Assembly: GCA_003224525.1 (NCBI GenBank)
Contig: QHZB01000197.1
Location: 1-50,495, forward strand
Direction of reading: 5' to 3'
DNA length: 50,495 nt
Source of the DNA: Acidobacteriota bacterium
GTDB lineage: Bacteria > Acidobacteriota > Terriglobia > Acidiferrales > UBA7541
A model generated the notes under the pieces. It had not been told where the DNA came from. It searched no databases and saw only the letters and a list, made by a program, of their open reading frames with translations. Within the stretch, counting starts at the first letter, position 1. The number at the start of each line of letters is the position of its first letter. Made by a program: the position numbers and the translations under genes. Shown here one piece after another: positions 1 to 33,470 of this stretch.

Positions 1-2151
1 ACATTCTCTGGTCAGCAGGTTGTGAACGAAAACTTTGTTACCACTCGGGCCGACCATAAGTTCTCGGAAAAAGACAGCCTGTATGGAACATACCTGTTTG
101 ATAGAACCCCTTACTCGGCTCCCGACGGTATGAATAACGTCAAACTTGGCAGCCTCAGCTCTCGACAATTCCTGGCGGCCGAAGAAACTCACAGCTTCGC
201 GCCTACCTTTGTCAACGCCGTCCGATTCGGGTTTAACCATGAAGCCGTGAATAACAACCAGAGCACAGGAGCAATTAATCCGGTGGCGGCGGATAGTACT
301 CTGGGTTCCTTCGCAGGTCGAAATGCCGCCCAGGTCCAGATCACCGGCAACTCCCTTATGCCTGGCGGTGTCGGGGGACTGCCAACCTACTTGTACCGTT
401 GGAATTCCTTCCAGGTGTACGACGACGCGTTCCTCAATCGAGGCAAGCACGCGATCAAGTTTGGGGTGGCGGTTGAGCGCATGCTCATGCAAGCCACGGC
501 GCTTACCGATCCGAGCGGCATTTGGCAATTCGCCGATGTACCAAGTTTCATGACGAATCAACCATCGAGGTTCCAGGGAGGAATTGTCAGCACGCTCTCC
601 CCCCGTGATGTTCGCCAGACCATCTTTGGCGGCTACCTGCAGGACGATTGGCGCTGGCTGCCGAATCTCACTTTGAATCTCGGTCTGCGTTATGAGATGG
701 CCACCGTGCCCACGGAGACTCATCGCAAGCTTGCCAACTTGAGAAACCTTAGTGACGCCAGTCCTCATCTCGGCGACCCATTTTTCGTCAACAACCCCAC
801 AACCAAGAATTTCGAGCCACGCTTAGGTTTTGCCTGGGATCCGCTCCGCAACGGAAAGATGGCCGTACGGGGCGGCGCGGGACTCTTTGATGTCCTGCCG
901 CTGCCGTATCAGTTCATCCTTCTCGTGACCCAGGCCGCTCCCTTTTTCGAATACACTTCCATCAAGAATCCAGGACCCACGACATGCAACTGCCCACCAA
1001 CAAAGCCACCATTTTTTGACGGTGTTTTGCCACCTTTCCCGGCGAACAAATTGCGCCAGACGTACACGGACCCCAGCCCCAAGCGCAACTACGTGACGCA
1101 GTGGAACCTGAACGTCCAATACCAGCTCACCCCGAGCTTGGCTGCCATGGTTGCTTACGTTGGATCGCGTGGCCTGCACCAGCCCTTCCGCGTGGACGAC
1201 GCCGATATGGCTCTTCCAACCGTTACTTCAGCAGGCTATTTGTGGGACCCTAACGCGAGCCGGCTCAACGACCATTACGGCTCTATTCGAGGTATGTTCT
1301 ACCAGGGACGGTCTTACTTCAACGCGCTCGAGCTACAGTTGGCGAAGCGCATGAGCCACGGCTTTCAGCTACAGGGGACCTTCACTTGGGGCAAGAGCAT
1401 CGATACTAGTTCCGCCACGGTGGCAGGCGACGCATTTGGTAACTCCATTTCGAGCCTTAATTGGTTCGATATGAGATTGGATCGTGGGCTCTCCGATTTC
1501 AACGTTGGCCGCACTCTCGTTGTGAACGGCACGTGGGACATTCCCACCGCCAAGTCATTCTCCGGACCGGCGAGGTGGATCGCTGATGGTTGGGAACTCG
1601 GTCTGATCCTCACAGTGAGTGACGGCGTGCCTTTTACCCCCACATGGGGTACCGGCGATGACCCGGCTCTTACACAGAACAATGACGATTGGGCGTTCCC
1701 GAATAGGCTTGGCGGCCCTGGATGCAAAACCCTTACAAATCCAGGAAACCCGAACAACTATATCAAGACCCAGTGCTTCGCCATCCCCACCGCACCGGAC
1801 GCTGCGTTTTTTACTGCGAATAATTGTCAGGTCGGAGATCTGACCAACCTTCAGTGCTTCAACCTCCGAGGCAACGCCGGCCGAAACATCATAATCGGTC
1901 CGGGCATCACGAATCTAGACTTCTCCGTCTTCAAGAACAATCGCATCAAGCGTATCTCGGAGAATTTCAACGTACAGTTCCGTGCCGAGATTTTTAACAT
2001 CTTGAATCATCCCAACTTCGCCCCTCCCACGGTGCCCGACGAGAGTGACATCTTTTTGTCAGACGGGACTCTGAGTGGGTCGGCCGGTTTGCTGACAAGG
2101 ACGACGATCCCGGAACGGCAGATCCAGTTTGCAGTCAAGTTCATTTTCTGA
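1..2151 (+). CDS. TonB-dependent receptor, Oar-like (C-terminal part)
   Basis: The reading frame is already open at base 1, so the gene starts outside the window and its N-terminus (signal peptide, carboxypeptidase-like regulatory domain, plug) is missing. What remains is an outer-membrane beta-barrel domain: alternating aromatic/polar strands, extended loops, motifs such as 'LQDDWRWLPNLTLNLGLRYE' and 'FRAEIFNILNHPNF', and a terminal strand ending in aromatic Phe (RQIQFAVKFIF). These features are typical of the large Oar-type TonB-dependent receptors expanded in Acidobacteriota, which import large substrates or bind matrix components; the substrate is unknown. The stop codon is at 2149-2151. 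An exported propeller follows on the same strand 70 bp downstream and may be co-transcribed. Confidence 0.9.
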   Translation, partial: TFSGQQVVNENFVTTRADHKFSEKDSLYGTYLFDRTPYSAPDGMNNVKLGSLSSRQFLAAEETHSFAPTFVNAVRFGFNHEAVNNNQSTGAINPVAADSTLGSFAGRNAAQVQITGNSLMPGGVGGLPTYLYRWNSFQVYDDAFLNRGKHAIKFGVAVERMLMQATALTDPSGIWQFADVPSFMTNQPSRFQGGIVSTLSPRDVRQTIFGGYLQDDWRWLPNLTLNLGLRYEMATVPTETHRKLANLRNLSDASPHLGDPFFVNNPTTKNFEPRLGFAWDPLRNGKMAVRGGAGLFDVLPLPYQFILLVTQAAPFFEYTSIKNPGPTTCNCPPTKPPFFDGVLPPFPANKLRQTYTDPSPKRNYVTQWNLNVQYQLTPSLAAMVAYVGSRGLHQPFRVDDADMALPTVTSAGYLWDPNASRLNDHYGSIRGMFYQGRSYFNALELQLAKRMSHGFQLQGTFTWGKSIDTSSATVAGDAFGNSISSLNWFDMRLDRGLSDFNVGRTLVVNGTWDIPTAKSFSGPARWIADGWELGLILTVSDGVPFTPTWGTGDDPALTQNNDDWAFPNRLGGPGCKTLTNPGNPNNYIKTQCFAIPTAPDAAFFTANNCQVGDLTNLQCFNLRGNAGRNIIIGPGITNLDFSVFKNNRIKRISENFNVQFRAEIFNILNHPNFAPPTVPDESDIFLSDGTLSGSAGLLTRTTIPERQIQFAVKFIF

Positions 2152-3770: not shown

Positions 3771-4880
3771 TCATGGCATCACATCATAGACCAGTATCTT
3801 GGCCTCTTCGATGGTTGCTTCCTTTGATTGCGGGATGGGAGGAACCAGGATGACGAGCTTGGGGATAGCCGCGTAAAACCGCTTGAGTTCTGGCACCAGC
3901 AGCGTGGTCTTCGCAATCGGCCCGGTCGCAACTCTTCCAAGGCGCTCGTAATGGTCCGCGTCAAGCTGTTTGAACACTTCCACGAAGCCGGTCGTTCCCG
4001 TGTAGTAGATTCGTTTGCTTGGCGGGTCAAACTCGAGTTCGTCCACACCGCCCTCGGTGTCGATCGCATCTATCACTTTCCCGGTATCCGAATCCATCAC
4101 CACCAGCTTCCCTGGTTTATAAATGTGTGAGCGTTTCACCCGGCTGCCGACAAACAGGCGATGATGGGCCGCGTCCAACGTCACCGCATGGGGCTCCGGC
4201 CCCCCGGTGATAGGCCACGTGGCGATCACCTTGCGCTTTTCGCGGTCAATGACCACGACTTCGCTTGTGTCACCCATAACTACAAACATTCTTGGCGATG
4301 CCGGATCGAGCACGAGGCCTGCGGGATTCAAGCCGTTGACTTCAATGCTACCCGCGAGTTTGCCGTTCTTTATGTCGACGATTTCGATCGAGCCTCTGGC
4401 ACCCTCTTTTTTGAGCCCATCGGCTCTGTCACCCAGATAAAATAGATGCGTGGCCGGATCATAAACCCCGTTATCTGGCACCCTCCTCGAGTCTTTGTCC
4501 AGCTCGTGGCCGGTCAGGGGGATGTTCTTGACGAGCTCGTACGTATCCCCGCTGAATGCTTTGCACGTTGCATCTCCGTCGTCCACCCAGATTTCGTTGG
4601 TCTCAGGGAGATAGATCGTTTTGCGAGGATCTCCTCCGAACCCTGTGATCGTGTGGATCACTTTGCCCTCGCGCAGGTCGATAACTTCAATCGTCCTCTG
4701 GTGCTCTCCTGGAACGAACAGGCGCTGCCCTTTGATGTCCACCGCCATGTGGTCGAAATAGCCCTCAACATTCGGCAATGGGATGCTCTGGATCTGTTTC
4801 AGCGGCGCGCTCGTCTGGCCCTGCGCTCTTGGAATCAAGATCGTGCACAAAACCCAGAAAATCGCTGCGTACCTTTTCAT
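3771..4880 (-). CDS. Exported YVTN-type beta-propeller protein
   Basis: 369 aa from the ATG at 4880. This start is preferred over the upstream ATG at 4916 because an AGGAG lies 8 bp before it and it begins directly with a signal peptide (MKRYAAIFWVLCTILIPRAQG, cleavage near AQG). Blades contain 'FDHMAVDIKGQRLFVPGEHQ', 'IEVIDLREGKVIHTITGFGG' and 'VVVIDREKRKVIATWPITGG'. It is probably periplasmic. It is a paralogue of the propeller at 2222-3265, but longer because of an insertion after the third blade. It lies 79 bp downstream of the first PrpD-like gene on the same strand and may be read through from it. No enzymatic function can be inferred. Confidence 0.82.
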   Translation of the reverse strand: MKRYAAIFWVLCTILIPRAQGQTSAPLKQIQSIPLPNVEGYFDHMAVDIKGQRLFVPGEHQRTIEVIDLREGKVIHTITGFGGDPRKTIYLPETNEIWVDDGDATCKAFSGDTYELVKNIPLTGHELDKDSRRVPDNGVYDPATHLFYLGDRADGLKKEGARGSIEIVDIKNGKLAGSIEVNGLNPAGLVLDPASPRMFVVMGDTSEVVVIDREKRKVIATWPITGGPEPHAVTLDAAHHRLFVGSRVKRSHIYKPGKLVVMDSDTGKVIDAIDTEGGVDELEFDPPSKRIYYTGTTGFVEVFKQLDADHYERLGRVATGPIAKTTLLVPELKRFYAAIPKLVILVPPIPQSKEATIEEAKILVYDVMP

Positions 4881-4959
4881 TCTTTCGCTCCTCGTTTGCA
4901 ATTTCCCTGAATTCATTTTGCGCGGGCTCTAGCTTGCCGGTGCGAAGATGCCGCCCCCT

Positions 4960-6501
4960 TCATCCTCGTCGAAGCGCGGGCCGTAGTTCGCGCACGTCCT
5001 TTACGTTTTCTATAGCCAGCACTTTCTCGATCAGCGCCGCGGACGCGGTCGCGCCAAGAACGGGCGAGATCAAGTCTCGTGCTTTCGCTACAACCTCCTC
5101 CCGCGTCATGGGATTCTCCGCCGTCCCGCGCACATCTCGGACCCACTCGCTCATTTGCGTGCCGTCGGCGAGCGTCACCTCGACAATGGCCTCGCGCTTC
5201 GGACGCCGGGCATCGATCCGCGGGTCGGCAACTATCTCTACCTTGGCGCGCTGCCGCAGCACGGCGGGGTCCTTCATGCGCGCTTTGTCATGTGCCGATC
5301 GGAAGCTGGCCGTTTTGTCCAGCAGCATCACTGCCACCATGTACTCCAGGCAGATGTCCGGCATGTCGCGATTGCTCACCGTGTTGGCCTCGTCGCTGGC
5401 GATCCGCACGACCACCTTCCGTACATCGTCGGCGGTAAACGTACGCTGTTTGAAGAAATCCGCGAATGCGTCGAGCGGAGCCTGGATGGGCGAGCCTACC
5501 GTCCATTTCTTGATGTTCGTTCGCGTTATCTCATAGCGCTCCCCCAGCTTTTCGACCAGTTGCGTCGGATCGGCTTTGATCACTCCATTTTCCCTAGGGG
5601 CATAGGCTTCAAAAAAATTGTCAGGACCGGAAAAAATGTCGTCAACACCTGTCCAACCCGCGCGGACCAGCATCGCAGCTGTGACTCCGCCAGCCGCCGG
5701 CTTCCCCCCAAAGAGAAAGGCTTTCTCCATATGCTCGGCATCCCGGCTCCAGGCCCCGATTCCCGATGTTTGTTGAGCGCTGTAATCCAGCAGCAAGCGC
5801 ATCTGCTGGGCCCCAAGACCCGCAGCGCAGCCGGCGGCCGCGCCAGCCCCGAAAGCCGCAACGGTGCCGTGCGTGCTCCTGTGCGTCATCGCCTGGTAGC
5901 CCGGTCCGCCCATGCTCATTGTCACGCGCGCCCCGACGTCATAACCAAGCGCCACGGCGCGTAAGAAGTGCTTTCCGCTGATTCCAAACTGCTCGCCGGC
6001 AGCCAGCGCCGCTGGAACTACCGAGACACCGGGATGCGAACGGGACGGGCCGTGCGAATCGTCAGTCTCGTCAGCGTGAGCAAGCACTCCGTTCGCCAGC
6101 GCCGCTTCGATGGGACCGCACACGATGTTTGAAGCGACTACCGTCGCAACCTCCTCACCACCATATACGCGGACAAACTCGATCGCTGCGCGTCCCGGGC
6201 GTATCTCGGAGCCGGAAATCATCGCAGCCAGCGTATCCAAAATGTGATGTTTCGTCTTCTCGACCACTTCGTCCGGCAGCGCTCGTTCACCCGCTTCGCT
6301 CATGTACTTGCTGAGCTTGTCCATAACTGGACTCACACCTTGCGCCGCCTCATCTTCGCTGGCCGCTGCCTTCGCTGCCGCGACGCCGGACGGAATAACC
6401 GTGGCTGCGAATGCCAGGCCGGCGAGTTCAAGCAGGTTGCGCCGGGTGAGAATTGCTCCGCCGCTCCCTGCCAGCTTATCTTTGTCTTCGCCATGTATCA
6501 T
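4960..6501 (-). CDS. Tat-exported MmgE/PrpD family protein (copy 1)
   Basis: 513 aa. MmgE/PrpD proteins include 2-methylcitrate dehydratase, cis-aconitate decarboxylase and iminodisuccinate epimerase: cofactor-free enzymes acting on polycarboxylates. An N-terminal twin-arginine signal (TRRNLLELAGLAFAATVIP, about residues 19-38) precedes the family fold. The conserved active-site stretch 'AHADETDDSHGPSRSHPG' is present, with acidic residues and the His of HPG intact. Classical members are cytosolic, so export is unusual. A GGAGGAG lies about 10 bp before the ATG. The gene follows tarD (164 bp gap, containing conserved element site 1) and precedes a propeller gene. The partner tarD suggests a hydroxy-dicarboxylate substrate, but this is inference. 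Copy 2 at 7868 is a close paralogue. Confidence 0.85.
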   Translation of the reverse strand: MIHGEDKDKLAGSGGAILTRRNLLELAGLAFAATVIPSGVAAAKAAASEDEAAQGVSPVMDKLSKYMSEAGERALPDEVVEKTKHHILDTLAAMISGSEIRPGRAAIEFVRVYGGEEVATVVASNIVCGPIEAALANGVLAHADETDDSHGPSRSHPGVSVVPAALAAGEQFGISGKHFLRAVALGYDVGARVTMSMGGPGYQAMTHRSTHGTVAAFGAGAAAGCAAGLGAQQMRLLLDYSAQQTSGIGAWSRDAEHMEKAFLFGGKPAAGGVTAAMLVRAGWTGVDDIFSGPDNFFEAYAPRENGVIKADPTQLVEKLGERYEITRTNIKKWTVGSPIQAPLDAFADFFKQRTFTADDVRKVVVRIASDEANTVSNRDMPDICLEYMVAVMLLDKTASFRSAHDKARMKDPAVLRQRAKVEIVADPRIDARRPKREAIVEVTLADGTQMSEWVRDVRGTAENPMTREEVVAKARDLISPVLGATASAALIEKVLAIENVKDVRELRPALRRG

Positions 6502-6610
6502 GTGCGTTCATCTCCTCCGGGCACTTCGCGATAGAGCGAATTTGTTCAAGGTTGTCCGGACAGAGTGGACTCAACCGTGCAACCCAAGTTATGTCGTCAA
6601 CCGAATCAAA

Positions 6611-6633
6611 TATCTGAAAACAGTATTAATTCT
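6611..6633 (-). promoter_or_regulatory. Conserved upstream element, site 1
   Basis: Read on the minus strand it is AGAATTAATACTGTTTTCAG followed by ATA, about 110 bp upstream of prpD copy 1. It is nearly identical to site 2 (9491-9515) and related to sites 3 and 4. The centre is an imperfect inverted repeat CTGttTTCAG. It could be an operator or a promoter core element; the binding factor is unknown. Confidence 0.5.
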
Positions 6634-6665
6634 TTTTTAGCTTATTCGATTCGAATTCAGCTCAC

Positions 6666-7838
6666 CTAGTTATCCGTCAGTGCCTTCATAACGCGAAACA
6701 TTTCGCTCTTCGCCTCGAACCCGACACCGGGAATCTCCGGCAGCTTGACGTAACTGTCTTCGACCGCTATCCCGTCGGCAAATCCACCGAACGGCTGAAA
6801 AATTCCAGGATAGGATTCGTTGCCCCCCAGCCCCAAACCGGCCGCGATGTTCAACGACATCTGATGCCCTCCGTGCGGAATACAGCGAGTCGGCGACCAT
6901 CCATATTCCTTCAACATACCCAGGATCCGAAGGTATTCGACTAGTCCGTAGCTCAACGCGCAATCGAACTGCAAGATGTCGCGATCTGATCGCATCTGAG
7001 CATAGCGAATGAGATTTCGTGCGTCCTGCAGGGAGAATAGGTTTTCTCCCGTTGCCATTGCTCCCGGATAATGATTCGCGAGCTTGGCTTGCAGCTGATA
7101 ATCGAGCGGATCACCTGCTTCCTCATACCAACGCAGCCCGTACGGGGCGAGTGCGTGCGCATAGGCGACCGCCGTCTCCAAATCGAAGCGGCCATTGGCA
7201 TCCACCGCCAATTGGTCCGGAGTCTTCAGGATCTTGAGTACGGCTTCAATGCGCTGCAGGTCCTCCGAAAGGGGCGCTCCGCCAATCTTAATCTTCACCA
7301 CGGAATATCCAAGATCGAGATACCCTTGCATCTCATTTTGCAGTGCCGGCAAGCCTTTGTCTGGATAGTAATAGCCACCTGCCGCATAGACGAATACTTT
7401 GCTGCCGAAGAGTCCCCCACGAAAACGGTTTGCTAGGAGCCGGAAAAGCGGCAGCCCGGCGATCTTCGCCACGGCATCCCACACGGCCATATCCAGCACC
7501 CCTACCGCCACCGATCTTTCGCCGTGTCCTCCGGGTTTCTCATTCCGCATGACAGCATCCCAGACTCGAACCGGATCTAGGTTTTCGCCGTTTTCGTCAA
7601 CCAGCGTTGCAGGCTCCGCGGCTCTAAGCCGGGGAATAAAACGGTCGCGCAGGAGTCCGCTAGGCGCGTATCGGCCATTCGAATTGAATCCGTAGCCGAC
7701 CACCGGCGTGCCCTGGCGCATCACATCCGTAACCAGTGCAAGCACACTCACGGTCATTTGGCTGAAATCAATGTACGCGTTGCGAATTTCCGATTTGATT
7801 GGCACTACGGTTTCGCGGATATCTACAATCCTCACCAT
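6666..7838 (-). CDS. tarD: D(-)-tartrate dehydratase, enolase superfamily
   Basis: 390 aa, the full length of the TarD family. The enzyme dehydrates D-tartrate to oxaloacetate in the cytoplasm using Mg2+. The catalytic set described for Bradyrhizobium TarD is present at the same residue numbers: Lys182 and Lys184 (VKIKIGG), metal ligands Asp213 (AVDANGR), Glu239 (WYEE) and Glu265 (ATGENLF), and His322 (IPHGGHQMS). Family hallmarks GYGFNSNGRY and NEKPGGHGERS are also there. No signal peptide is present, in contrast to the exported PrpD-like neighbours. It begins 29 bp after the end of prpD copy 2, so the two form an operon. A C-terminal relic of a second copy is at 9904-9987. A related enolase-superfamily acid-sugar dehydratase activity cannot be excluded, but similarity is specific to TarD. 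Confidence 0.93.
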   Translation of the reverse strand: MVRIVDIRETVVPIKSEIRNAYIDFSQMTVSVLALVTDVMRQGTPVVGYGFNSNGRYAPSGLLRDRFIPRLRAAEPATLVDENGENLDPVRVWDAVMRNEKPGGHGERSVAVGVLDMAVWDAVAKIAGLPLFRLLANRFRGGLFGSKVFVYAAGGYYYPDKGLPALQNEMQGYLDLGYSVVKIKIGGAPLSEDLQRIEAVLKILKTPDQLAVDANGRFDLETAVAYAHALAPYGLRWYEEAGDPLDYQLQAKLANHYPGAMATGENLFSLQDARNLIRYAQMRSDRDILQFDCALSYGLVEYLRILGMLKEYGWSPTRCIPHGGHQMSLNIAAGLGLGGNESYPGIFQPFGGFADGIAVEDSYVKLPEIPGVGFEAKSEMFRVMKALTDN

Positions 7839-7867
7839 TCTTCATGCCCCCGGAAAAACTGTCTAGC

Positions 7868-9391
7868 TCAGGACCGCTGCAGAAGAGGCCGCAGTTCTCG
7901 GATATCTTTTACTCTGTCCAGATTTAGCACTCTCTCAATGAGATTTGCACATTGTGCCGTGCCGAGGATCGGCGCTATCAAATCACGGGCTTTGGCAACA
8001 ATTTCGTCGCGGGTCATAGGATTCTTGGGCGTGCCCCGAACATTGTCAACTCGCTGTGTGAGATGCGTTCCATCCGTCAGTTGCACCTCCACAATCGCCA
8101 CGCGCAAAGGCATGAGGCGCTCTAGCTGCTCATCCGGAATTAATTTCACCTTTTCGCGCTCCCGGAGCGTCGCCGGATCTTTCATGCGCGCTTTGTCATG
8201 TGCCGAACTGAATGTGACCGTCTTGTCCATCACCATCACCGCGACCATATGCTGCAGGCAGATGTCCGGTATCTCGCGGTTGTTCACGATCGCTGCCTCA
8301 TCCGTAGCCAGTTGCACGGAGACCTTCTGTACTTCATTCGAATGGAAGGGGTGCTGCTTCCGCAGCATCTCGAGCGCATCGAGTGCCGCCTGGATCGGCG
8401 AACCTACGGGCCATTTCTTGATATTCGTCCGCAAAATTTCGTAACGCTCGCCAAGCTTTTCGGCCAGCCCGGCAGGATCGGCATGAGCGTTGTACGCCTC
8501 AAAGAAATTATCTTTCCCGGAGAAAATGTCTTCGACACCGGTCCATCCGGCCTGAACGACCAAGGCAGAAGTGACGCCGCTGCGGGCGGTCATGCCGCCA
8601 AAGTGGAATGCTTTCTGGATGTGCTCGGTGTCACGGTTCCATGCACCAAGGCCGGAGGATTGATGCGCCGTGTAGCTCAAGAGAAATCGCATCTGCGCCA
8701 CGTTTAAGCTCGCCGCGCAGCCGGCGGCCGCCGCCGCGCCGAAGAGTGGAGAGATGCTGTGCGTGCTCCAGTGACTCTCCGATTCGAATTGCTGCCCACC
8801 CAGGGTCATCGTGACGCGCGGTCCAACGTCGTAGCCGAGCGTCACCGCGCGCAAGAAGTGTGTCCCGCTGATGCCGAACCGCTCCCCAACCGCAAGGGCG
8901 GCAGGCACTACCGCACACCCCGGATGCGACTGTGACGGTGCGTGCGAATCGTCGGTTTCGTCGGCGTGAGCCAACACCCCATTCGCCAGAGCCGCCTCGA
9001 TCGGGCCACATACAATTTTCGAGGCCAGTATCGTCGCGACCTCTTTGCCACCATAGGCGGCGGCGAATTGTAGCGCTGCGAGTCCGGGTGCTAACTGCGA
9101 ACCAGAAATCATCGCCGCCACCGTGTCCAGAATGTGTTGTTTCGTTTTCTCAGTCACCTCGTCGGGCAGCTCGCGAGCGCTAGCTTCGCTCATGTATGTG
9201 CTTAGCTTGTCCGTGACTGGGCTCACCCCTTGCTCGGTTGTGTCCGTGCCAAGGAATGATTTGGCCATCACCGCCCTGGGTGGAAGCGCCACAGTTGCGA
9301 CAACTATGCCCGCGAGTTCGAGCAGGCTTCGCCGGGAAAGAATTGCCGGGCCGTTCTCTTCCGGCCCGCATTTGTTTCGAGCATCTCTCAT
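7868..9391 (-). CDS. Tat-exported MmgE/PrpD family protein (copy 2)
   Basis: 507 aa from the ATG at 9391, chosen because GAGGA lies just upstream; an ATG at 9412 would add 7 residues. A twin-arginine signal (SRRSLLELAGIVVATVALPP) leads into the same fold as copy 1, with the active-site stretch 'AHADETDDSHAPSQSHPG' and the same C-terminal RELRPLLQRS. Copies 1 and 2 are easily aligned along their whole length. The pair probably arose by duplication around tarD, since the order is prpD2-tarD-prpD1. Likely role: isomerisation, dehydration or decarboxylation of a polycarboxylate outside the cytoplasm, which is inference. A conserved element (site 2) lies about 100 bp upstream. Confidence 0.85.
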   Translation of the reverse strand: MRDARNKCGPEENGPAILSRRSLLELAGIVVATVALPPRAVMAKSFLGTDTTEQGVSPVTDKLSTYMSEASARELPDEVTEKTKQHILDTVAAMISGSQLAPGLAALQFAAAYGGKEVATILASKIVCGPIEAALANGVLAHADETDDSHAPSQSHPGCAVVPAALAVGERFGISGTHFLRAVTLGYDVGPRVTMTLGGQQFESESHWSTHSISPLFGAAAAAGCAASLNVAQMRFLLSYTAHQSSGLGAWNRDTEHIQKAFHFGGMTARSGVTSALVVQAGWTGVEDIFSGKDNFFEAYNAHADPAGLAEKLGERYEILRTNIKKWPVGSPIQAALDALEMLRKQHPFHSNEVQKVSVQLATDEAAIVNNREIPDICLQHMVAVMVMDKTVTFSSAHDKARMKDPATLREREKVKLIPDEQLERLMPLRVAIVEVQLTDGTHLTQRVDNVRGTPKNPMTRDEIVAKARDLIAPILGTAQCANLIERVLNLDRVKDIRELRPLLQRS

Positions 9392-9903
9392 GCTTTCCTC
9401 TTCCAAAGGCACTTTGCTATGGCTTGCTTGCTCATAGGTGCTCGCGCAAGGAGGACCGATCCGGACGAGATTATGTCAGTATCAAAGTCGGATACCTGAA
9501 AACAGTATTAATTCTTCTTTAGCCCGATGGTGTATTCGCCCAACCAGATTCCCTCCCCAACCCTCGATCCACAGAGCATGATGCTATTCCCGCGGGACCC
9601 TGGGAAGGTCGATGCTCGAAGTAGCAACCGAACGATAGTTCGGCTTGAGGGTTCACGCGTCCGTATCTCCAAGCTTGCGAGACAAGAGCAGAATAAAAAG
9701 CGAGTGTCCGATCTTGACGGTAGACTCTCGGATTGCAATTGCGGAGTTTCTGAGAAGGAACTAGAAGGACAGGAACTTAAGTTGCCTTACCGGTTCGCTG
9801 ACGCCTCTGTCGGGCCGGACACAGATCGCATTCAAAGTTAGAACGTCTGCGCGTCGCGCGGCGGTCGCGTGTTTGGGTCCCGTCGCCCCCGCCACGGTGT
9901 CTT
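9392..9903. other. Intergenic region upstream of prpD copy 2
   Basis: About 510 bp. It contains conserved element site 2 (9491-9515) roughly 100 bp before prpD copy 2. The rest (about 9530-9900) has open stretches on both strands, but I find no recognisable protein motif, no good ribosome binding site and no RNA structure. It is probably decayed sequence belonging to the tarD relic that follows. Confidence 0.4.
9491..9515 (-). promoter_or_regulatory. Conserved upstream element, site 2
   Basis: On the minus strand it reads AGAATTAATACTGTTTTCAG followed by GTATC, about 100 bp upstream of the prpD copy 2 start. It differs from site 1 at a single base over 23 positions, although the surrounding intergenic sequence is largely different. 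That local conservation argues for a bound protein or a promoter function. Confidence 0.55.
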
Positions 9904-9987
9904 AGCTACGTCAGCTTGCCCGATATGCGAGGGATCGCATTTGAGGCTAAAAGCGAATTGTTCCGTGTAATGAAAGCGTTGGCGGAG
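9904..9987 (+). pseudogene. Relic of tarD C-terminus
   Basis: In frame from 9904 the sequence encodes SYVSLPDMRGIAFEAK and then SELFRVMKALAE. This matches the last 28 residues of the intact TarD (SYVKLPEIPGVGFEAK... SEMFRVMKAL) at about 19 of 28 positions. Nothing upstream resembles the rest of TarD, so only the C-terminal end survives. It is on the opposite strand to the intact gene and is followed by conserved element site 3 and a PrpD relic, mirroring the intact tarD-site-prpD order. Confidence 0.75.
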
Positions 9988-10033
9988 ACTTGGCCGATTT
10001 TTTGGCGGCGTGCGAAGACTAATTGCGATTAAG

Positions 10034-10059
10034 AGAAATTAATGCTGAATTCAGGTATC
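10034..10059 (+). promoter_or_regulatory. Conserved upstream element, site 3
   Basis: AGAAATTAATGCTGAATTCA followed by GGTATC. It aligns with sites 1 and 2 and here has a perfect palindromic core CTGAATTCAG. It lies 140 bp upstream of the PrpD relic at 10199, in the same orientation relative to prpD as at the intact copies. Confidence 0.5.
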
Positions 10060-10198
10060 CAGACTACTCGTAACGTAACCTTAGTTCTCGCACTTTCGAT
10101 GCTGCCCCGCTCGCCATGGACCAGCCCCCAAGCTCTTGCGGAATAGGACAGGAACCCGCCATTCGGAGGAAAATATCCACGAAGAGAGAGACTCCAAA

Positions 10199-10354
10199 AT
10201 GGTGATCCGGCGCCGCTTGATCAAGCTCAGCGGTGTGTCCACGGTCCTCGCGGCGCTGCCGCCCGGTCACGCGAAGGCTCTCATCGGCAAATTGCTCGCT
10301 CTGGAGACTCTGTGCGATGTCCGCGAGCTCCGCCCCGTGCTTCAAAGGAGTTAG
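10199..10354 (+). pseudogene. Internally deleted MmgE/PrpD relic
   Basis: A 51-codon frame. Its first part ([20 protein letters not shown]) looks like the twin-arginine signal of the PrpD-like genes. Its last part ([20 protein letters not shown] then PVLQRS) matches the C-terminus of the intact copies (RELRPLLQRS in copy 2). About 450 residues between them are gone. The frame ends at 10354, 8 bp before the start of dctA, so transcription reaching dctA may originate in front of this relic. It could be translated as a small peptide, but no enzymatic fold remains. Confidence 0.75.
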
Positions 10355-10362
10355 TCCAAGCG

Positions 10363-11676
10363 ATGCTTCTCCCGGCCGCCACCGCCCCTGAAACAATTTC
10401 ACCTCCGCGCAAAAGGCCCTTCTACATGGGCCTCTCCTTCCAAGTGCTGCTCGGCGTCGCCATTGCCATCATCCTCGGTCATGTCAGCCCCGCTAGCGCC
10501 GTGGCCATGAAGCCGCTCGGCGATGCCTTTATCCGTTTGATCACCATGATCATCACCTTGGTCATCTTCTGTACCTTGGTCACCGGAATCGCCGGCATGG
10601 AGGACATGAAGAAAGTCGGCCGTGTGGGCGGCAAAGCCCTCCTGTATTTCGAAGCAGTCTCGACTCTTGCCCTGCTCATCGGGCTCGTCGTGGGCCATGT
10701 GGTGGGTCCCGGCAGCGGTTTTAACATCGATCCTGCTACGCTGGACGCCAAGGCCGTGGCCGAATATGCCGGCCAGGCCAAAGCCCAAAGTGTTGCGGAG
10801 TTCCTCGTCCACATCATTCCGAACACGGTTGTAGATGCGTTCACGCGGGGAGACATTTTACAAGTGCTGCTCGTCAGTCTTCTGTTCGGCTTCGCTTTGT
10901 CGCTCGCCGGCCCGCGCTGCAAACCGCTCGTCGATCTCTTGGACGCCCTGACCCGCGTCGTCTTCGGCGTGGTCGCCATCTTGATGCGCTTCGCCCCCAT
11001 CGGAGCTTTTGGCGCCATGGCCTTCACCGTCGGCAAATACGGTCTGGCTTCCTTGGGTCCTCTCCTCAAATTGATGGTCACGCTCTATATTACATCGATA
11101 CTCTTCGTCATCCTCGTGCTGGGGGGCATCGCCCGCGTAGCAGGCTTCGGAATCCTGCGCTTCCTCTGGTATCTTCGCGAAGAAATTCTCCTCGTGCTGG
11201 CCACGAGTTCCTCGGAACCCGCGTTGCCCTCGCTCATGGCCAAGCTCGAAAAGCTGGGCTGCTCCAAAGCCCTCGTCGGCCTGGTTGTCCCCACCGGTTA
11301 CACCTTCAATGCCGACGGCACGAGCCTCTACATGACTCTTGCCGCGTTATTCGTGGCTCAGGCGACCAACACGCATCTAACACTGGCCCAGCAATTCACG
11401 ATCCTGGGCGTCGCGGTGCTCACCTCCAAAGGCGCGAGCGGCGTGCAAGGAGCCGCCTTCATCGCGCTCGTCGCCACCATGATGGTGATCCCAACCATAC
11501 CGGTTGCCGGCATGGCGCTGATTCTCGGCATCGATCGTTTCCTCAGCATGTGCCGCGCTGCTGTTAACATGACCGGCAATGCGGTTGCCACTCTCGTCGT
11601 GGCCCGTTGGGAAAACGAGCTAGACCGCAACACTCTGCGAAAGAATCTGGCAGCGGAAGAAAGTGGAGGGCGCTAA
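10363..11676 (+). CDS. dctA: C4-dicarboxylate:cation symporter, DctA-like
   Basis: 437 aa from the ATG at 10363 (AAAGGAG at 10344-10350, spacing 12). Inner-membrane symporter of the DAACS family with eight transmembrane segments and two re-entrant hairpins. It has the serine-rich hairpin ([20 protein letters not shown]), the family motif ([20 protein letters not shown]) and the C-terminal ([23 protein letters not shown]) region, all closest to DctA rather than to glutamate carriers. DctA imports succinate, fumarate, malate and related C4-dicarboxylates with protons or sodium. Next to tarD and tartrate dehydrogenase it is the natural uptake route for tartrate or malate in this cluster, which is inference. 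A weak 6-bp hairpin (CACCGC/GCGGTG) follows the stop. Confidence 0.88.
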
Positions 11677-11889
11677 ACACCGCCCTGTGAGCGGTGACGA
11701 TCCACTACGGGGATCTGGGAAGCTGGCCAATCGCTCGGTGAAGCCTGCGTGATTGCTAGATGGAACTAATTCCCACGGCTGATCGTTATGAATTACGAAA
11801 ACGAAGCGCAGAAGCAGTATTCATTATGGCGAAACACAGCATAATCCGATCCGTGGCGGAACTGCCGCTAATGCTTGTTGTTTGGTCAG

Positions 11890-11994
11890 AGCTTGAGGAT
11901 TCGCGCGGCGTTGTCGCCTAAGGTCATCTTTCGTTGCACGCTCGTTATATTTACCTGATCCAGGAAATGCACCGGCCTTTCGTACTCCATGTCG
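11890..11994 (-). pseudogene. Relic of amidohydrolase-family C-terminus
   Basis: The minus strand encodes MEYERPVHFLDQVNITSVQR followed by KMTLGDNAARILKL and a stop. The ending (LGxNAARIL) is the hallmark C-terminus of amidohydrolase-2 (TIM-barrel) proteins. Only about 34 residues remain, and upstream it joins directly to an Ldh2-family fragment in another frame. Confidence 0.5.
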
Positions 11995-12202
11995 AGGCAG
12001 CTCCGTTCGATTTTCCGTCCAGCAAACCAAACATCAGAGCCAGTCCATACCCTTTCGGGCCGCCGATGGATGCAAGGAAACCTTCCCTCGCGCGCTTCGG
12101 ATCGGTCAAGGGTAGACCTTGGCGGTCGATCATCCAGCCTTCCGGTATCTGCTCATTCGAGCCCGTTCTGACAGAGATTCCCGAACGCCAGTACGCCGGC
12201 AC
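11975..12202 (-). pseudogene. Relic of malate/L-lactate dehydrogenase (Ldh2)
   Basis: The frame encodes NEQIPEGWMIDRQGLPLTDP and then GFLASIGGPKGYGLALMFGL, the conserved C-terminal third of the Ldh2/YiaK/ComC family of NAD(P)-dependent 2-oxoacid reductases. Both ends are missing: no start region upstream, and similarity stops at NGAAS, where the amidohydrolase relic begins. It is probably a deletion remnant of a gene that once belonged to the dicarboxylate cluster. Confidence 0.65.
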
Positions 12203-12222
12203 CTAGCTCTCAACTCCAACAG

Positions 12223-13059
12223 GTGAGTTATGATAAAAGTGCGTTCTTGAGCAAAAAAGTGCAGACTTACTCTTTCAATGGAAAAACCTTCGTGAAAGCG
12301 AAAACGGAGTTAATACTCACGATGTGTTGTCTTCCCTTGCCGATCTTCGCGCAAATGCCGACCGTTATCCCGCTGGCTTCCGAACCTCATCATCATCTTG
12401 CATTGCACAACGAATACGTGAACGTGTACGAGGTCGAAGTCGCACCTCACGATTCCGTGCAGTTGCACCGGCATGAATTTGACGCGATTAGCATCATGAT
12501 GAGCAATTCTGAAGTCATTGTCGAGGCACCCGGGAAACCGGACGTACGACAGAAACTCTCCGAGGGTCAAGTGCGGCTTCAGTCCAGCGGCTATGTGCAT
12601 TCGACGTCGATCGAGGGCGACACCGCATACCGCAACGTCACCGTAGAGCTCCTTTTCCGTCAGCAAGGAGGGCGCAATCTCTGCGCTAAGTTGATTGACA
12701 CCCAGGGGCTGAACTGCCCCAGTAAACAGGCATCCCCGCCGGACCACACACACATAGAACAACCCCAATATGAAACCGACCAGACGTACGTGACCCTTAT
12801 TCGGGTGCTGCCCCACCAGAAAGTCACCTTAGGGGGCGCTGGCCGTCTGGAATTGATCGTCTTGCTAGACGATGCATCAGAGGCAACTGCAGAAGAGACG
12901 AGCTCGGGTAATCCTTTGCGTCCCGGCGATTTTAGGTGGATTGCGATTGGCCACGCAGCATGTGTATTCGAGAATAAAAGCAGCAAAGAAATAAGATTGA
13001 TTTCGTTTCGATTGAAACCTCAAGGGTCTGTGGAAACAATACCAGTACCGAGAAAGTGA
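12223..13059 (+). CDS. Exported cupin-fold protein
   Basis: 278 aa from a GTG at 12223. A GTG at 12292 would give a shorter form beginning directly with a signal-like segment (KTELILTMCCLPLPIFAQ) and may be the true start; neither has a strong ribosome binding site. After the signal come two cupin-like halves. The first has HHHLALHNEYVNVYEVEVAP and a metal-type pattern 'LHRHEFDAISIMM' with a later His in SSGYVHS. The second (about residues 180-270) has VTLIRVLPHQKVTLGG and ends in a beta-rich stretch. Specificity is unknown. It is the last plus-strand gene before the convergent tartrate dehydrogenase (6 bp apart). Confidence 0.65.
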   Translation: MSYDKSAFLSKKVQTYSFNGKTFVKAKTELILTMCCLPLPIFAQMPTVIPLASEPHHHLALHNEYVNVYEVEVAPHDSVQLHRHEFDAISIMMSNSEVIVEAPGKPDVRQKLSEGQVRLQSSGYVHSTSIEGDTAYRNVTVELLFRQQGGRNLCAKLIDTQGLNCPSKQASPPDHTHIEQPQYETDQTYVTLIRVLPHQKVTLGGAGRLELIVLLDDASEATAEETSSGNPLRPGDFRWIAIGHAACVFENKSSKEIRLISFRLKPQGSVETIPVPRK

Positions 13060-13065
13060 CTGCTC

Positions 13066-14127
13066 CTACGTGCTCACTTGCAGGGCGATAGCCGTCCCTA
13101 GATCCTTAGTCGTCGAGATACCTCCAATATCCGGAGTGCGAACTTTCGATTGCGCCAGAATATTCGCGATCGCATTCTCGACGGCATCGGCGGCGTCCGG
13201 AACGCCCAATTGCCTGAGCATCATGGCGCCCGACCAAATCTGCCCTATGGGATTGGCTATTCCTTTTCCGGCGATATCGGGGGCCGAGCCGTGGACGGGT
13301 TCGAACATGGATGGAAATTCCTTTTCCGGATTGAGATTCGCGGACGGAGCGATGCCAATCGATCCGACCACAGCCGGACCCAAGTCGGAGAGAATGTCAC
13401 CGAAAAGGTTGGAGCCAACAACGACATCAAACCAGTCCGGATGGCGCACAAAGTGAGCGGTCAGGATATCGATGTGATATTGGTCTGTGCGGATATCCGG
13501 AAATTCAGCCGCCATCCCATGAAAACATTCGTCCCAGAACGGCATGGTGTGGATGATCCCATTTGATTTTGTTGCGGAAGTCAGATGCTTGTTTCTTTTG
13601 CGAGCCAATTCGAAAGCGAATCGCATCACGCGATTTACGCCACGCCGCGTGAAAACTGTTTGTTGAACGGCCATCTCCTCTTCCGTGCCCTCGTAGAGAC
13701 GCCCGCCAATGTTTGAATATTCTCCTTCGTTGTTCTCCCGGACGATGCAGAAATCAATCTGACCGGGTTTCCAATTCTTGAGCGGAGTCTCAATCCCGGC
13801 AAAAAGACGCACGGGCCGCAAATTTACGTATTGCCGGAAGGTACGGCGGATGGGGATCAAGAGTCCCCAAAGCGAGACGTGATCCGGCACGCTGGGATGC
13901 CCAACGGCGCCGAGGAAGATAGCGTCGAAAGGCCGCAACTGCTGCAGGCCATCGGCGGGCATCATCTTTCCGGTTTTAACGTAGGTCTCACAACTCCAAT
14001 CGAAGGAGTTCCAGTTCAATCGAAAACGAAAGCGCTGGCCCGCTGCTTCCAGCACGCGAATGCCTTCCGGCACTACTTCCTTTCCGATGCCGTCTCCGGC
14101 GATAACTGCGATGTTGAAAGTTTTCAT
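13066..14127 (-). CDS. ttuC: Tartrate / D-malate dehydrogenase
   Basis: 353 aa, in the beta-decarboxylating dehydrogenase family (isocitrate/isopropylmalate type). NAD-dependent cytosolic enzyme that oxidises tartrates and oxidatively decarboxylates D-malate to pyruvate. Seen: nucleotide loop (VIAGDGIGKEVVPEGIRVLE), substrate-binding 'QYVNLRPVRLF' and 'CIVRENNEGEYSNIGGR', catalytic lysine region (SATKSNGI), metal aspartates (SNLFGDILSDLGPA) and 'FEPVHGSAPDIAGKGIANP'. The absence of the isopropylmalate-specific loop and the PDHVSLWGLLIPIR motif point to the tartrate/D-malate subgroup. It starts 12 bp after the stop of PrpD copy 3, so they are co-transcribed. It supports a tartrate/malate catabolic role for the cluster. 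A degenerate paralogue lies at 32419-33470. Confidence 0.88.
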   Translation of the reverse strand: MKTFNIAVIAGDGIGKEVVPEGIRVLEAAGQRFRFRLNWNSFDWSCETYVKTGKMMPADGLQQLRPFDAIFLGAVGHPSVPDHVSLWGLLIPIRRTFRQYVNLRPVRLFAGIETPLKNWKPGQIDFCIVRENNEGEYSNIGGRLYEGTEEEMAVQQTVFTRRGVNRVMRFAFELARKRNKHLTSATKSNGIIHTMPFWDECFHGMAAEFPDIRTDQYHIDILTAHFVRHPDWFDVVVGSNLFGDILSDLGPAVVGSIGIAPSANLNPEKEFPSMFEPVHGSAPDIAGKGIANPIGQIWSGAMMLRQLGVPDAADAVENAIANILAQSKVRTPDIGGISTTKDLGTAIALQVST

Positions 14128-14139
14128 GTACGCCAGACT

Positions 14140-15651
14140 CTATCCTTTTCCTTTCTCGGCTGCCAACAACGGTGAAAGCGCGCTCACATCCGGGGCGGTA
14201 TCTAGGGCGCGGACAAAAGCGATTATTTTCTCGGTCTTGGCGCTAGGCCAGTCTGCGAATTCGGCGCATCCCTTGAATTTTGCCGCTGCTTCTTCAAAAG
14301 TCATGGGGTTGGCAGGGCTGCCCTTGCCAAAATCAGCTCGGCCGGTGATGACTCTCCCGTCCTTCAAATGGATTTTCAGCAGGGAGGTCATCTTGTCGTA
14401 GCCGGCGCTCTCAGCCTCTGAGTCCACATAAAAGTTTATCTTCCTGATCATTTCCTGGACGTCGGCGCGCTGAACTACTTTGTCCGAGAACTCGCCCAAC
14501 CCCGCCTTTCGTTCCAGCACCAGAATCGCCATGCAGAATTCCATGCTGAATTTGGCTTCCAGTCCGGTCTTTGGCTGGTGGTGGAGAAGAGTTGTGGTCA
14601 TGTTGTGATTGGCACCGACGTCCATCTTTTCTACTTGAGTTGCTTGAATATTGTTGGTTTCGATCAGACGCGCCAGCTCGGTCATCGCAGGATGTGTGAG
14701 GGAGCCCGATGGATAAGGTTTTAAGGAGATCCCGGGAGAGACGAACGTCCAAGGTTTTCCCAGACGGCCTATAATCGCCGCCGGATCATACGATCCTCCG
14801 AAAGCATGGAAGAATCCACGATCCGCTTCCAGAATTTGCTCCGCTGCAGACCAGCCGAGTGCGACAAGTTCAGTCGATTCCAGCCCGCTTTCTGCTGCTC
14901 GCCCGGCCTGGAAAGGCTTGGTCATGGTGCCAAAGTTTTCTCTCAGGCCCCCAGATTGACTGGCGGCCAGGCCGAACACGTTTAGCGTTTTTGAAAGATC
15001 GAAGCGAAGCAGCTTCGCGCAGGCCGCCGCGGAGCCGAACGGTCCGCATGTTCCCGTGGAATGAAATCCATCTTGATAATGGCGGGGCGAAATCGCTTCC
15101 GCAATTTTGCATTCCACTTCGACTCCCAAATGGTAGGCAAGCATCAGTTCTTTGCCGGACACGGCCCCGCGTTCAGCAAGCGCCAGGGTAGCGGAAAGCA
15201 CGGGTACGGTGGGATGCACTAACAGGCCATACACACGGTCCTTGGCAACCGCGAGCTGCGTATCATCGAAATCATCCGCATGAATCGAAACGGCGTTCAC
15301 GAAGGCAGCGAAGCGCGGGGAAGTTTTCCGCGCTGATCCGATGATGGAGGCTTTTCCGTCGAAGAGGCCGAGATCTTCAAGGTACTGGCGGCAAATGGCT
15401 CCTGTCCGCGCCATGGAACCGGCCAACGCTAGTCCCAGACCGTCAAGGATAGACTTCTTGCCCAATTCGATTACTTGCGACGGAATATCCTCGTATTTTG
15501 TCGTCGTGACAAACCTGCCGACGTAATCCGTGAGGCCAGGGGACTTGGGGAAATCACTGCCGGCTGCGACTTCCGCACCTTTTGCGGAATTGACGAGCAC
15601 GGTCGAAACAAACACGCCGAGAGATGCTTTGCCAAAGTCACGCCTGAACAT
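14140..15651 (-). CDS. Exported MmgE/PrpD family protein (copy 3)
   Basis: 503 aa. The start is an ATG with AAGGTG 4 bp upstream. The N-terminus FRRDFGKASLGVFVSTVLVN looks like a Tat signal, with cleavage near KGAE. The fold is MmgE/PrpD, with the active-site stretch 'HADDFDDTQ' and a later 'LVHPTVPVLSA', but it is clearly more divergent than copies 1 and 2, which closely resemble each other. It is the first gene of a two-gene operon with tartrate dehydrogenase. The family contains dehydratases, decarboxylases and epimerases of polycarboxylates; an epimerase or dehydratase feeding TtuC is plausible but unproven. Confidence 0.83.
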   Translation of the reverse strand: MFRRDFGKASLGVFVSTVLVNSAKGAEVAAGSDFPKSPGLTDYVGRFVTTTKYEDIPSQVIELGKKSILDGLGLALAGSMARTGAICRQYLEDLGLFDGKASIIGSARKTSPRFAAFVNAVSIHADDFDDTQLAVAKDRVYGLLVHPTVPVLSATLALAERGAVSGKELMLAYHLGVEVECKIAEAISPRHYQDGFHSTGTCGPFGSAAACAKLLRFDLSKTLNVFGLAASQSGGLRENFGTMTKPFQAGRAAESGLESTELVALGWSAAEQILEADRGFFHAFGGSYDPAAIIGRLGKPWTFVSPGISLKPYPSGSLTHPAMTELARLIETNNIQATQVEKMDVGANHNMTTTLLHHQPKTGLEAKFSMEFCMAILVLERKAGLGEFSDKVVQRADVQEMIRKINFYVDSEAESAGYDKMTSLLKIHLKDGRVITGRADFGKGSPANPMTFEEAAAKFKGCAEFADWPSAKTEKIIAFVRALDTAPDVSALSPLLAAEKGKG

Positions 15652-32418: not shown

Positions 32419-33470
32419 TCAGATTTGATCGTAGCCCTCTGCGTCGGTTTTGCACAAAACATCAGCCCGCACGCTCGTCACTGTCATTCGTAATTTTTTC
32501 AGCGGACCGTTGGACAGGAATTGTACTGTGACCGTGAGTCCGTTCGGCAATTGTTGCGTGCTGTCCTTTAGATCGATCACGGCGGTCCATATCGCGGCAA
32601 TCGGATTGGCGATGCCTTTGCCCGTGATATCAAAGGCAGCTCATGAATTGGCTTGAACATGGAAGGAAAGCGGCGCTCCGGGTCAATGTTGCCCGTCGGG
32701 GCGATTCCCAGGCTGCCGGCGAGGGACGCTGCGAGGTCGGAGAGAATGTCGGCGTGCAGATTTGTAGCCACAATGGTGTCCAGGCTCGCGGGCTTGCCCA
32801 CCATGCGAGTGGTCATGGCGTCGACCAGCATCTTGTCGCAGGTGACACCCGGGAACTCAGTTGCCACCTCGGCCGCGATCTCGTCCCAGAGAACTATGCC
32901 CTGGCGCTGCGCGTTGGATTTCGTGATGACCGTCAGCAACTTTCGTGGCCGGTCTTGTGCGAGCTTGAAAGCCAAGCGCATGATGCGCGTTACGGCGCTG
33001 CGGGTGAAGATCGAAGTTTCCGTGGCGACCTCTTCTGGGAAACCGCGATGGGCGCGGCCACCATGGCCAGCATATTCGGCTTCGGTGTTTTCGCCGACGA
33101 TGGCCCAATCGAGATCGCCAGGCTTACAGTCGCGCAGCGGCCATGACAGTCCTTGCAGGATACGCGTGGGCCGAAGATTGACATACTGGTCGAAGCCCTG
33201 GCATATCGCCAGGCGCAGGCCCCAAAGCGTGATGTGGTCCGGCACGGCGCGAGCGCCGACGGCACCAAAAGAAATTGCGTCGAACGGGCCAAGGAGTTTG
33301 AGGCCGTTTTGCGGCATCATCACACCGTGCTTTTTTGTGGTAGTCCGAGCTACCTTTAGCCGAAATCCGCCAGCCTTTTGTGTAAGCGTTTGCAAGACTT
33401 CAAGGCCGGCAGCGATCACTTCGCGGCCGATGCCCTCCGCAGGGATAGCTGCAATTGAATACTCGCGCAT
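32419..33470 (-). pseudogene. Degenerate tartrate/malate dehydrogenase homologue
   Basis: Same family as the intact enzyme at 13066, with clear similarity up to FPSMFKPIH. It then has a frameshift near 32638: the other frame restores AFDITGKGIANPIAAIWTAV. After this, homology is lost and a foreign tail runs to a stop at 32419. Key residues are also lost: the nucleotide loop reads AEGIG instead of GDGIG, the substrate Arg of 'VRENTEGEY' is Gly (VGENTEAEY), 'NLFGDILSD' is NLHADILSD, and 'FEPVHGSA' is FKPIHE. Taken together it is a decaying gene. It is divergent from the MFS transporter, with a shared 145-bp promoter region. Confidence 0.75.

Follow-up and report, generated by a model that had tools for sequence, protein, structure and literature searches.

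Named enzymes of the MmgE/PrpD family, which is known above all for its part in propionate breakdown, belong to central metabolism and work in the cytosol, or in the mitochondrion in animals. Why, then, would three members of this family begin with twin-arginine-type N-termini on a stretch of DNA from a soil bacterium of the Acidobacteriota (GenBank contig QHZB01000197.1, covered entirely by the 50,495 nucleotides analyzed here and further referred to as the window), among homologues of a D-tartrate dehydratase (TarD), a tartrate dehydrogenase (TtuC), and a C4-dicarboxylate transporter (DctA)? The answer that we favor, with confidence and doubt in about equal measure, is that the locus would serve the envelope-spanning utilization of a hydroxy-polycarboxylate, likeliest tartrate, via periplasmic PrpDs, DctA, and cytosolic TarD and TtuC. 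In a genome of 6.47 Mb that is 98% complete, the genes concerned form two minus-strand units between positions 3771 and 15651 (i.e., PrpD2-TarD-PrpD1-YncE2 and PrpD3-TtuC); between them, the plus strand encodes DctA and a cupin-like protein. The main features are as follows, "PIQ clade" being the name given to the clade of PrpD1 and PrpD2:

4960–6501, minus strand: PrpD1, an MmgE/PrpD protein of exported type and PIQ-clade member (Pfam, 161 and 96 bits)
6666–7838, minus strand: TarD, a D-tartrate dehydratase homologue (phmmer matches to 4kem and 2dw7; no signal peptide seen)
7868–9412, minus strand: PrpD2, likewise an MmgE/PrpD protein of exported type and PIQ-clade member (Pfam, 166 and 99 bits)
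10363–11676 (listed open reading frame from 10312), plus strand: DctA, a C4-dicarboxylate transporter (PRK01663, 628 bits, cut-off 513)
13066–14127, minus strand: TtuC, a tartrate dehydrogenase homologue (TIGR02089, 550 bits, cut-off 470.4), 12 bp past PrpD3
14140–15651, minus strand: PrpD3, an exported-type MmgE/PrpD protein of a separate clade resembling iminodisuccinate (IDS) epimerase and BsIRG1 (Pfam, 200 and 97 bits)

PrpD1, PrpD2, and PrpD3 all exceeded the curated cut-offs for PF03972 and PF19305 of the MmgE/PrpD superfamily. Since every PF03972 match in the genome is one of these three, no cytosolic methylcitrate dehydratase of that family was found in it. A methylcitrate-cycle role for the window proteins was itself considered and rejected, given their export-type signals, the lack of any other PF03972 match in the genome, and scores far under the cut-offs of the equivalogs NF042438, TIGR02330, and NF006943 (950, 458, and 575 bits, respectively), i.e., 41, 18, and 20 bits for PrpD1 and 37, 13, and 15 bits for PrpD2, while PrpD3 reached 32 bits against NF042438 and gave no listed match to the other two. 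The closest named relatives of PrpD2 among its best 80 matches were metagenome-assembled genomes (MAGs) of Acidobacteria group gp2, including 'Candidatus Acidiferrum typicum'. The PrpD2 model (pLDDT 90.2) had IDS epimerase as its top PDB match (2hp0, TMt 0.89), and the PrpD3 model (pLDDT 82.0, from an alignment 14 sequences deep) was nearest to BsIRG1 (7bra, TMt 0.86), just ahead of 2hp0 (TMt 0.86), in line with its phmmer matches to 7bra (3.4e-50) and 2hp0 (1.8e-49). Separately, three genomes of one related genus (G483, G484, and G485) each showed nine PrpD-family matches, fragments counted; such numbers per genome make several substrates likely for the family.

The N-termini of PrpD1 (TRRNLLELAGLAFAATVIPSGVAAAKA), PrpD2 (SRRSLLELAGIVVATVALPPRAVMAKS), and PrpD3 (FRRDFGKASLGVFVSTVLVNSAKGAEV) are of the twin-arginine type, as the first-pass annotation had read them, and each passed both a strict and a relaxed rule-based test; TatC is also encoded in the genome. 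The strict test looks for an arginine pair (RR) followed, at most nine residues on, by the start of a 12-residue stretch free of D, E, K, and R with a mean hydropathy of at least 0.9, and a signal call here means inheritance among relatives under such rules rather than the output of a trained predictor. Homologues were collected with two internal peptide patterns or with profiles, and because the patterns leave the signal region out, the pattern search is not circular. The strict test was passed by 0/19 PrpDs of a phylum sample (the 30 best PF19305 loci, thus non-random, of which 19 were near full length by a profile of the window PrpDs), 51/66 PrpDs of set B (mostly from the order), and 89/106 PrpDs of set C (at named loci; sets B and C share genomes), as compared with 0/380, 33/1320, and 71/2120 shuffled N-termini, respectively. 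It was also passed by 45/347 other clustered neighbor genes, several of which have Sec-type starts by eye. Within the phylum sample, loci L011, L022, and L028 were left out of the signal counts, loci L004–L010 and L014 (not near full length) showed no RR signal on reading, and L032 passed the relaxed test and falls in a third lineage of exported type.

The inheritance of the signal was followed on a tree for which 195 hits gave 191 near-full-length sequences and, with the three window proteins, 194, reduced to 133 rows at 90% identity (built by a quick method, with some long branches; the split PrpD3 of L073/L109, one genome, was left out). The tree contained the PIQ clade (90 rows, branch length 2.35), a PrpD3 clade (15 rows), the third lineage (5 rows from Granulicella, Edaphobacter, a Rhodospirillaceae MAG, and two further genomes), a cytosolic phylum clade (15 rows), and 8 remaining rows. 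The relaxed test was passed by 87/90, 14/15, 5/5, and 0/15 rows of the four named groups, respectively (85/88, 13/14, 5/5, and 0/15 without the window proteins), all eight rows outside them being negative and 165/2600 shuffles passing falsely. The label for twin-arginine translocation (Tat), which was given by hand to the three window rows that the tests show to pass, switches 7 times on the tree versus 24.9 times for shuffled labels, none of 500 shuffles being as low. By these rules, an export-type signal is inherited in three PrpD lineages, and we infer that the window PrpDs are located in the periplasm.

It seems very improbable to us that the RR N-termini are non-functional as export signals and that the PrpDs are cytosolic. 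Such a location would fit the failures in the strict test (15/66 in set B and 17/106 in set C, with 75/88 non-window PIQ rows passing) and a locus without RR (L171), which is one of three PIQ-clade misses in the relaxed test, next to L118 (RR kept, but the stretch interrupted by Arg) and L103 (an RR-coding stretch near 8930 separated from the PIQ PrpD by an in-frame TGA, and scored as a miss). However, RR lies upstream of the domain in 86/88 PIQ and 14/14 PrpD3-clade non-window rows, the relaxed test sets the PIQ clade sharply apart from the cytosolic one, and the AlphaFold models place the N-terminal residues (the first 32 in PrpD3 and 60 in PrpD2) outside the fold and with low confidence; residues 1–32 of PrpD3 fall under pLDDT 50, and PrpD2 averages 44–66 over its first six ten-residue blocks, with most of the domain above 90. 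R-R is also invariant in 46/46 sequences of alignment A3, a hand-picked set with L171 left out. Misread start codons as the source of RR were considered and rejected on the 86/88 count and on the recurrence of the N-terminal extension in unrelated genera.

Active-site columns were mapped onto the alignments from the BsIRG1 residues named in PMC7347537. D91, H102, Y146, H151, K200, and K266 are kept in all 15 rows of the PrpD3 clade and all 5 of the third lineage, and among PIQ rows H102 and K200 are kept in 90/90 and K266 in 89/90 (one gap). H151 is present in all 25 orthologues of PrpD1 and PrpD2, but in 43/65 other PIQ rows. Across the PIQ clade, E replaces D91 and Q occupies the column of His277 of human ACOD1 (90/90 each), and PrpD1 and PrpD2 thus lack this mark of animal-type cis-aconitate decarboxylase (CAD); the PrpD3 clade has H in 15/15 rows at a nearby column, chosen by eye as the putative equivalent of His277. 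According to PMC7347537 and PMC11814083, BsIRG1 and Aspergillus CAD likewise lack His277, and a His (with a Tyr or a second His) is proposed to move a proton next to a carboxylate in IDS epimerase and in CAD/BsIRG1. Both proposed bases of IDS epimerase (His99 and Tyr145) are retained in 15/15 PrpD3-clade rows and 12/12 PrpD1 orthologues, while PrpD2 retains His99 and has Phe instead of Tyr145. Since the Y146 column, i.e., that of Tyr145, holds Tyr in 12/12 PrpD1 and Phe in 13/13 PrpD2 orthologues, both paralogues are, as judged from these alignments, kept apart at the proposed second-base position.

The cytosolic end of the locus is formed by enzymes that are familiar by sequence. The window TarD, an enolase-superfamily protein, is a full-length close homologue of 4kem (phmmer, 1.2e-190) and of Bll6730 (2dw7, 3.7e-180), which we take to be a characterized TarD, and its Lys, Asp, Glu, and His motifs, presumably the catalytic ones, are identical to those of the TarD references in the alignment. 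The earlier claims of a TarD with all its catalytic residues, a DctA-like importer (628 bits against the NF002461 cut-off of 513), and a TtuC-like dehydrogenase (above the TIGR02089 cut-off) were thus borne out. TarD converts D-tartrate into oxaloacetate, TtuC acts on L- or meso-tartrate and D-malate and requires NAD, and both are enzymes of nitrogen-free acids. As no signal was seen at the N-terminus of either protein, and as TtuC needs NAD, TarD and TtuC would be expected to act in the cytosol. A second tartrate-dehydrogenase-like gene was noted elsewhere in the window (32577–33470); it is short (297 aa), has 47% identity to TtuC, and neighbors an alginate-lyase-family gene, a galactonate-type transporter, an L-arabinonate dehydratase (over its cut-off), and an IclR regulator.

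The linkage of exported-type PrpDs with these genes, to which the first-pass annotation had drawn attention in the window, recurs in relatives. The order, as covered by 95 genomes, yielded 13 TarD orthologues (at least 80% identity). PrpD2 and PrpD1 flank 11 of these, spread over 10 genomes; the other two are on contigs without such a PrpD match, and one of them has an in-frame TAA. TtuC orthologues (near full length, at least 74% identity) lie within 2 kb of a PrpD match in 17/24 cases, a count that includes G462 and G409, with the PrpD match in pieces, and leaves a 116-aa fragment in G469 out of the 24; adjacency was counted by side-by-side reading of match tables. Two types of unit can be discerned. 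The first (PrpD2-TarD-PrpD1-YncE2 followed by an outer-membrane protein, OMP) occurs in L105, L106, L107, and L118, and the second (PrpD3-TtuC-PrpD2-TarD-PrpD1-DctA, in some cases with a TcuC-type gene following TtuC and with a terminal OMP) occurs in L108, L109, L112, L113, and L130, L118 and L130 coming from one MAG (gp2 AA93). The gap from PrpD1 to DctA is 0–8 bp in L109, L112, L113, and L130, PrpD3 is followed by TtuC within 12–19 bp in the window, L108, L113, and L130, and L078 carries PrpD3-TtuC-PrpD2-PrpD1-DctA without TarD. The sequences show the gene content of the locus and the conservation of export-type signal, catalytic residues, and linkage.

That this clustering merely reflects chance or clonal association within one genus, without functional link, is scarcely believable to us, even though the genus of the window accounts for 12 of the 13 TarD orthologues in the order. 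The two types of unit differ in order (the next gene being DctA or YncE2) but keep the core set, and three loci of MAGs labeled gammaproteobacterial (L110, L111, and L114) retain PrpD2-TarD, along with a TtuC homologue in two cases (64% and 49% identity). One of these, L111, has a different TonB receptor, PrpD2, TarD, TtuC, DctA, YncE, and PrpD3 on one strand.

The same neighborhoods bear on a possible, although clearly less probable, alternative in which the exported PrpDs would dehydrate, hydrate, or decarboxylate tricarboxylates or C5–C6 acids (citrate, isocitrate, aconitate, or methylcitrate-like acids) in the periplasm, with the product entering by DctA or TcuC, and TarD and TtuC being merely co-regulated acid genes. 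The solved relatives CAD/BsIRG1 and PrpD use such acids, and a TcuC-type symporter (701 bits, cut-off 445) lies between TtuC and PrpD2 in the L108 cluster, with relatives at the equivalent position in L109 (a 144-aa piece) and L130 and further ones in L116 (over the TcuC cut-off) and L156. Tricarboxylate dehydration would explain this symporter. On the other hand, TarD is placed between PrpD2 and PrpD1 in nearly all of its occurrences, TtuC follows PrpD3 at the short distances given above, and no TcuC-type gene was clustered from the YncE2-OMP loci L105, L106, L107, and L118.

The exported clade nevertheless extends beyond tartrate genes. Among 78 named PrpD1/2-type loci surveyed up to 4 kb (51 of which have 4 kb on both sides), a PIQ gene is accompanied by TarD in 12, TtuC in 7 (plus 3 of low identity), DctA in 9, and an OMP homologous to the window's TonB-receptor-like protein in 17. 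The TtuC-like genes of the betaproteobacterial loci L172, L176, and L182 (41% identity) were set apart as low identity, that of L172 being below the cut-off (281 versus 470 bits). In Edaphobacter lichenicola (L146, L158, and L159), the order is OMP, DctA, an alpha/beta hydrolase, a PrpD of the third lineage, a bicupin of the oxalate-decarboxylase family (TIGR03404, 476 bits versus 254), and a PIQ PrpD, with an SRR/TRR-type N-terminus on hydrolase, both PrpDs, and bicupin. Because a different exported-type PrpD partner thus appears in the same envelope layout, these loci suggest that the periplasmic step itself is the conserved feature.

Several of these observations weigh against the tartrate pathway that we favor. 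No TarD lies within 4 kb in 66/78 PrpD1/2-type loci (40/51 of those with full flanks, TarD being near in 11/51), so that the exported PrpD clade is, as far as neighborhoods tell, broader than tartrate, and in the ca. 20 kb read, the Edaphobacter loci carry DctA without TarD or TtuC, which also suits the tricarboxylate alternative. Moreover, 7/24 TtuC and 2/13 TarD orthologues have no PrpD as neighbor, the PIQ gene of L115 occurs in the company of cytosolic-type PrpDs, the PrpD3-type signals look weaker by eye, and PrpD3 of L108 fails the relaxed test. Finally, given the D-to-E and H-to-Q changes in 90/90 PIQ rows and the loss of H151 in 22/65 other PIQ rows, PrpD1 and PrpD2 may do something quite different. 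As far as sequence can tell, neither of the two objections foreseen in the first-pass annotation (N-termini unlike export signals, or no recurrent linkage elsewhere) was borne out. The layout that it put forward, i.e., a periplasmic PrpD step feeding DctA and then TarD and TtuC, is partly supported and, with an outer-membrane receptor added, would be the most economical reading, but is weakened in its tartrate-only form.

The context of L117 (4845–13403) is a further point of this kind and hints at amino-dicarboxylates, as its PrpD1 orthologue is flanked by a BhcC-like aldolase and a gamma-glutamyltranspeptidase, and a BhcD-superfamily gene lies close by, although the BhcC- and BhcD-superfamily genes score far below the Bhc family cut-offs. 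It would be explained by an alternative that we deem rather unlikely, in which the PrpDs resemble IDS epimerase in function and act on amino-dicarboxylates or on chelators (iminodisuccinate-, hydroxyaspartate-, or aspergillomarasmine-like), taken up as metal complexes via the TonB receptor. The nearest fold of PrpD2 is indeed IDS epimerase, and PrpD3 retains both bases named for that enzyme in PMC7347537. In addition, an alanine-racemase-family gene with a twin-arginine-type N-terminus lies ca. 3 kb upstream of PrpD2 in L106 (5633–6988) and L107 (5563–6789), the latter gene being over the TIGR00492 cut-off in a scan of L107 only. Conversely, family scans recognized no nitrogen-metabolism gene in the window cluster, and the nitrogen-free substrates of TarD and TtuC do not match such a role.

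In the tartrate pathway as we envisage it, the TonB-type outer-membrane protein would admit the acid, as such or as a metal complex, to the periplasm. Here, the Tat-exported, folded, and cofactor-free PrpDs would deprotonate the carbon alpha to a carboxylate, following the proposal for IDS epimerase. Stereoisomers or bulkier acids outside the range of the inner-membrane carrier or of the cytosolic enzymes would thereby be epimerized or dehydrated. PrpD3 (H and Y) would be a two-base epimerase, and PrpD1 (Y) and PrpD2 (F) would be paired enzymes whose tasks differ. The product would then be imported by DctA, and in some relatives by TcuC as well, after which TarD and TtuC would complete its breakdown in the cytosol. 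The PrpD step is placed ahead of DctA because TarD and TtuC appear to be cytosolic, whereas a compact, cofactor-free PrpD could cross the inner membrane by Tat in folded form and would function in the periplasm without NAD; like this order of steps, the reaction and tartrate as substrate are what we infer from sequence. If tartrate isomers are epimerized, it would make sense that a D-specific dehydratase is kept with a dehydrogenase acting on the L and meso forms. The data nonetheless do not choose firmly among tartrate, tricarboxylate, and amino-dicarboxylate chemistries. In broader terms, we would wager evenly on PrpD chemistry having moved to the periplasm in at least two, and probably three, lineages, as part of a widespread and so far undescribed envelope pathway running from an outer-membrane receptor to DctA or TcuC; the Edaphobacter variant, in which hydrolase, PrpD, bicupin, and second PrpD all have Tat-type signals, would belong to it.

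Around the genes discussed so far, the locus contains the following further features:

22–2151, plus strand: C-terminal part of a TonB-receptor-like outer-membrane beta-barrel (PF25183, 448 bits; PF00593, 36.5 bits), truncated by the contig start
2222–3265, plus strand: YncE1, a YncE-like beta-propeller (weak YncE/PF21783 matches below cut-off)
3771–4916, minus strand: YncE2, a YncE-like beta-propeller and the end gene of the PrpD2-TarD-PrpD1-YncE2 unit, in the same order in L105, L106, L107, and L118
9901–9987, plus strand: relic of a TarD C-terminus from a decayed second copy (28 residues, 68% to TarD at 9904–9987)
10199–10354, plus strand: relic of a second PrpD1, in translation a signal peptide fused straight to the C-terminal tail, with the middle gone
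12223–13059, plus strand: cupin-like protein (no family match; label from sequence reading)

YncE1 has a Sec-type N-terminus by eye and is probably periplasmic, and the cupin-like protein, a 75% homologue of which adjoins DctA in L066, bears a probable secretion signal. The region from 9901 to 10354 ahead of DctA resembles the terminal remnant of a second, decayed TarD-PrpD1 unit, and because 10199–10354 is a PrpD1 relic, the true start of DctA is probably the ATG at 10363 rather than the listed one at 10312.

Open-access literature searches (PrpD with twin-arginine, periplasm, exoproteome, or tartrate; tartrate epimerase or racemase; Acidobacteria tartrate enzymes) retrieved, among the matches listed, neither a Tat-exported PrpD nor a pairing of TarD or TtuC with an exported PrpD, and the sole mention of PrpD in the available part of PMC10924467 is as a neighbor gene. 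If the periplasmic reading is true, soil bacteria would subject organic acids to carbon-acid chemistry beyond the inner membrane, and genes annotated just as "MmgE/PrpD family protein" would need a different reading. For a family that includes the source of the immunometabolite itaconate (PMC11814083), the exported branch would offer a direct and testable route to new epimerases or dehydratases.

When compared with known systems, the window TarD and TtuC are simply full-length close homologues of Bradyrhizobium Bll6730 and of the TIGR02089 enzymes, respectively. The PrpDs share the Pfam domains of 2-methylcitrate dehydratase (PrpD/MmgE), but differ from it in their equivalog scores (13–41 bits against cut-offs of 458–950), their export-type N-termini, and the lack of a further PF03972 match in the genome. 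CAD/BsIRG1 (7bra) is the best match of PrpD3 in both sequence and fold, with the D, H, Y, H, K, and K residues kept, and differs in lacking the export-type N-terminus of the window PrpDs, while PrpD1 and PrpD2 depart further by their Q at the human ACOD1 His277 column. IDS epimerase (2hp0/2hp3), finally, has the same fold (TMt 0.89 for PrpD2 and 0.86 for PrpD3) and the same active-site His and Lys, with both proposed bases present in PrpD3 and PrpD1; in contrast, PrpD1 and PrpD2 show the D-to-E and H-to-Q changes, PrpD2 is without the Tyr base, and the window PrpDs have export-type N-termini, a comparison in which the aligned part of IDS epimerase starts at residue 22.

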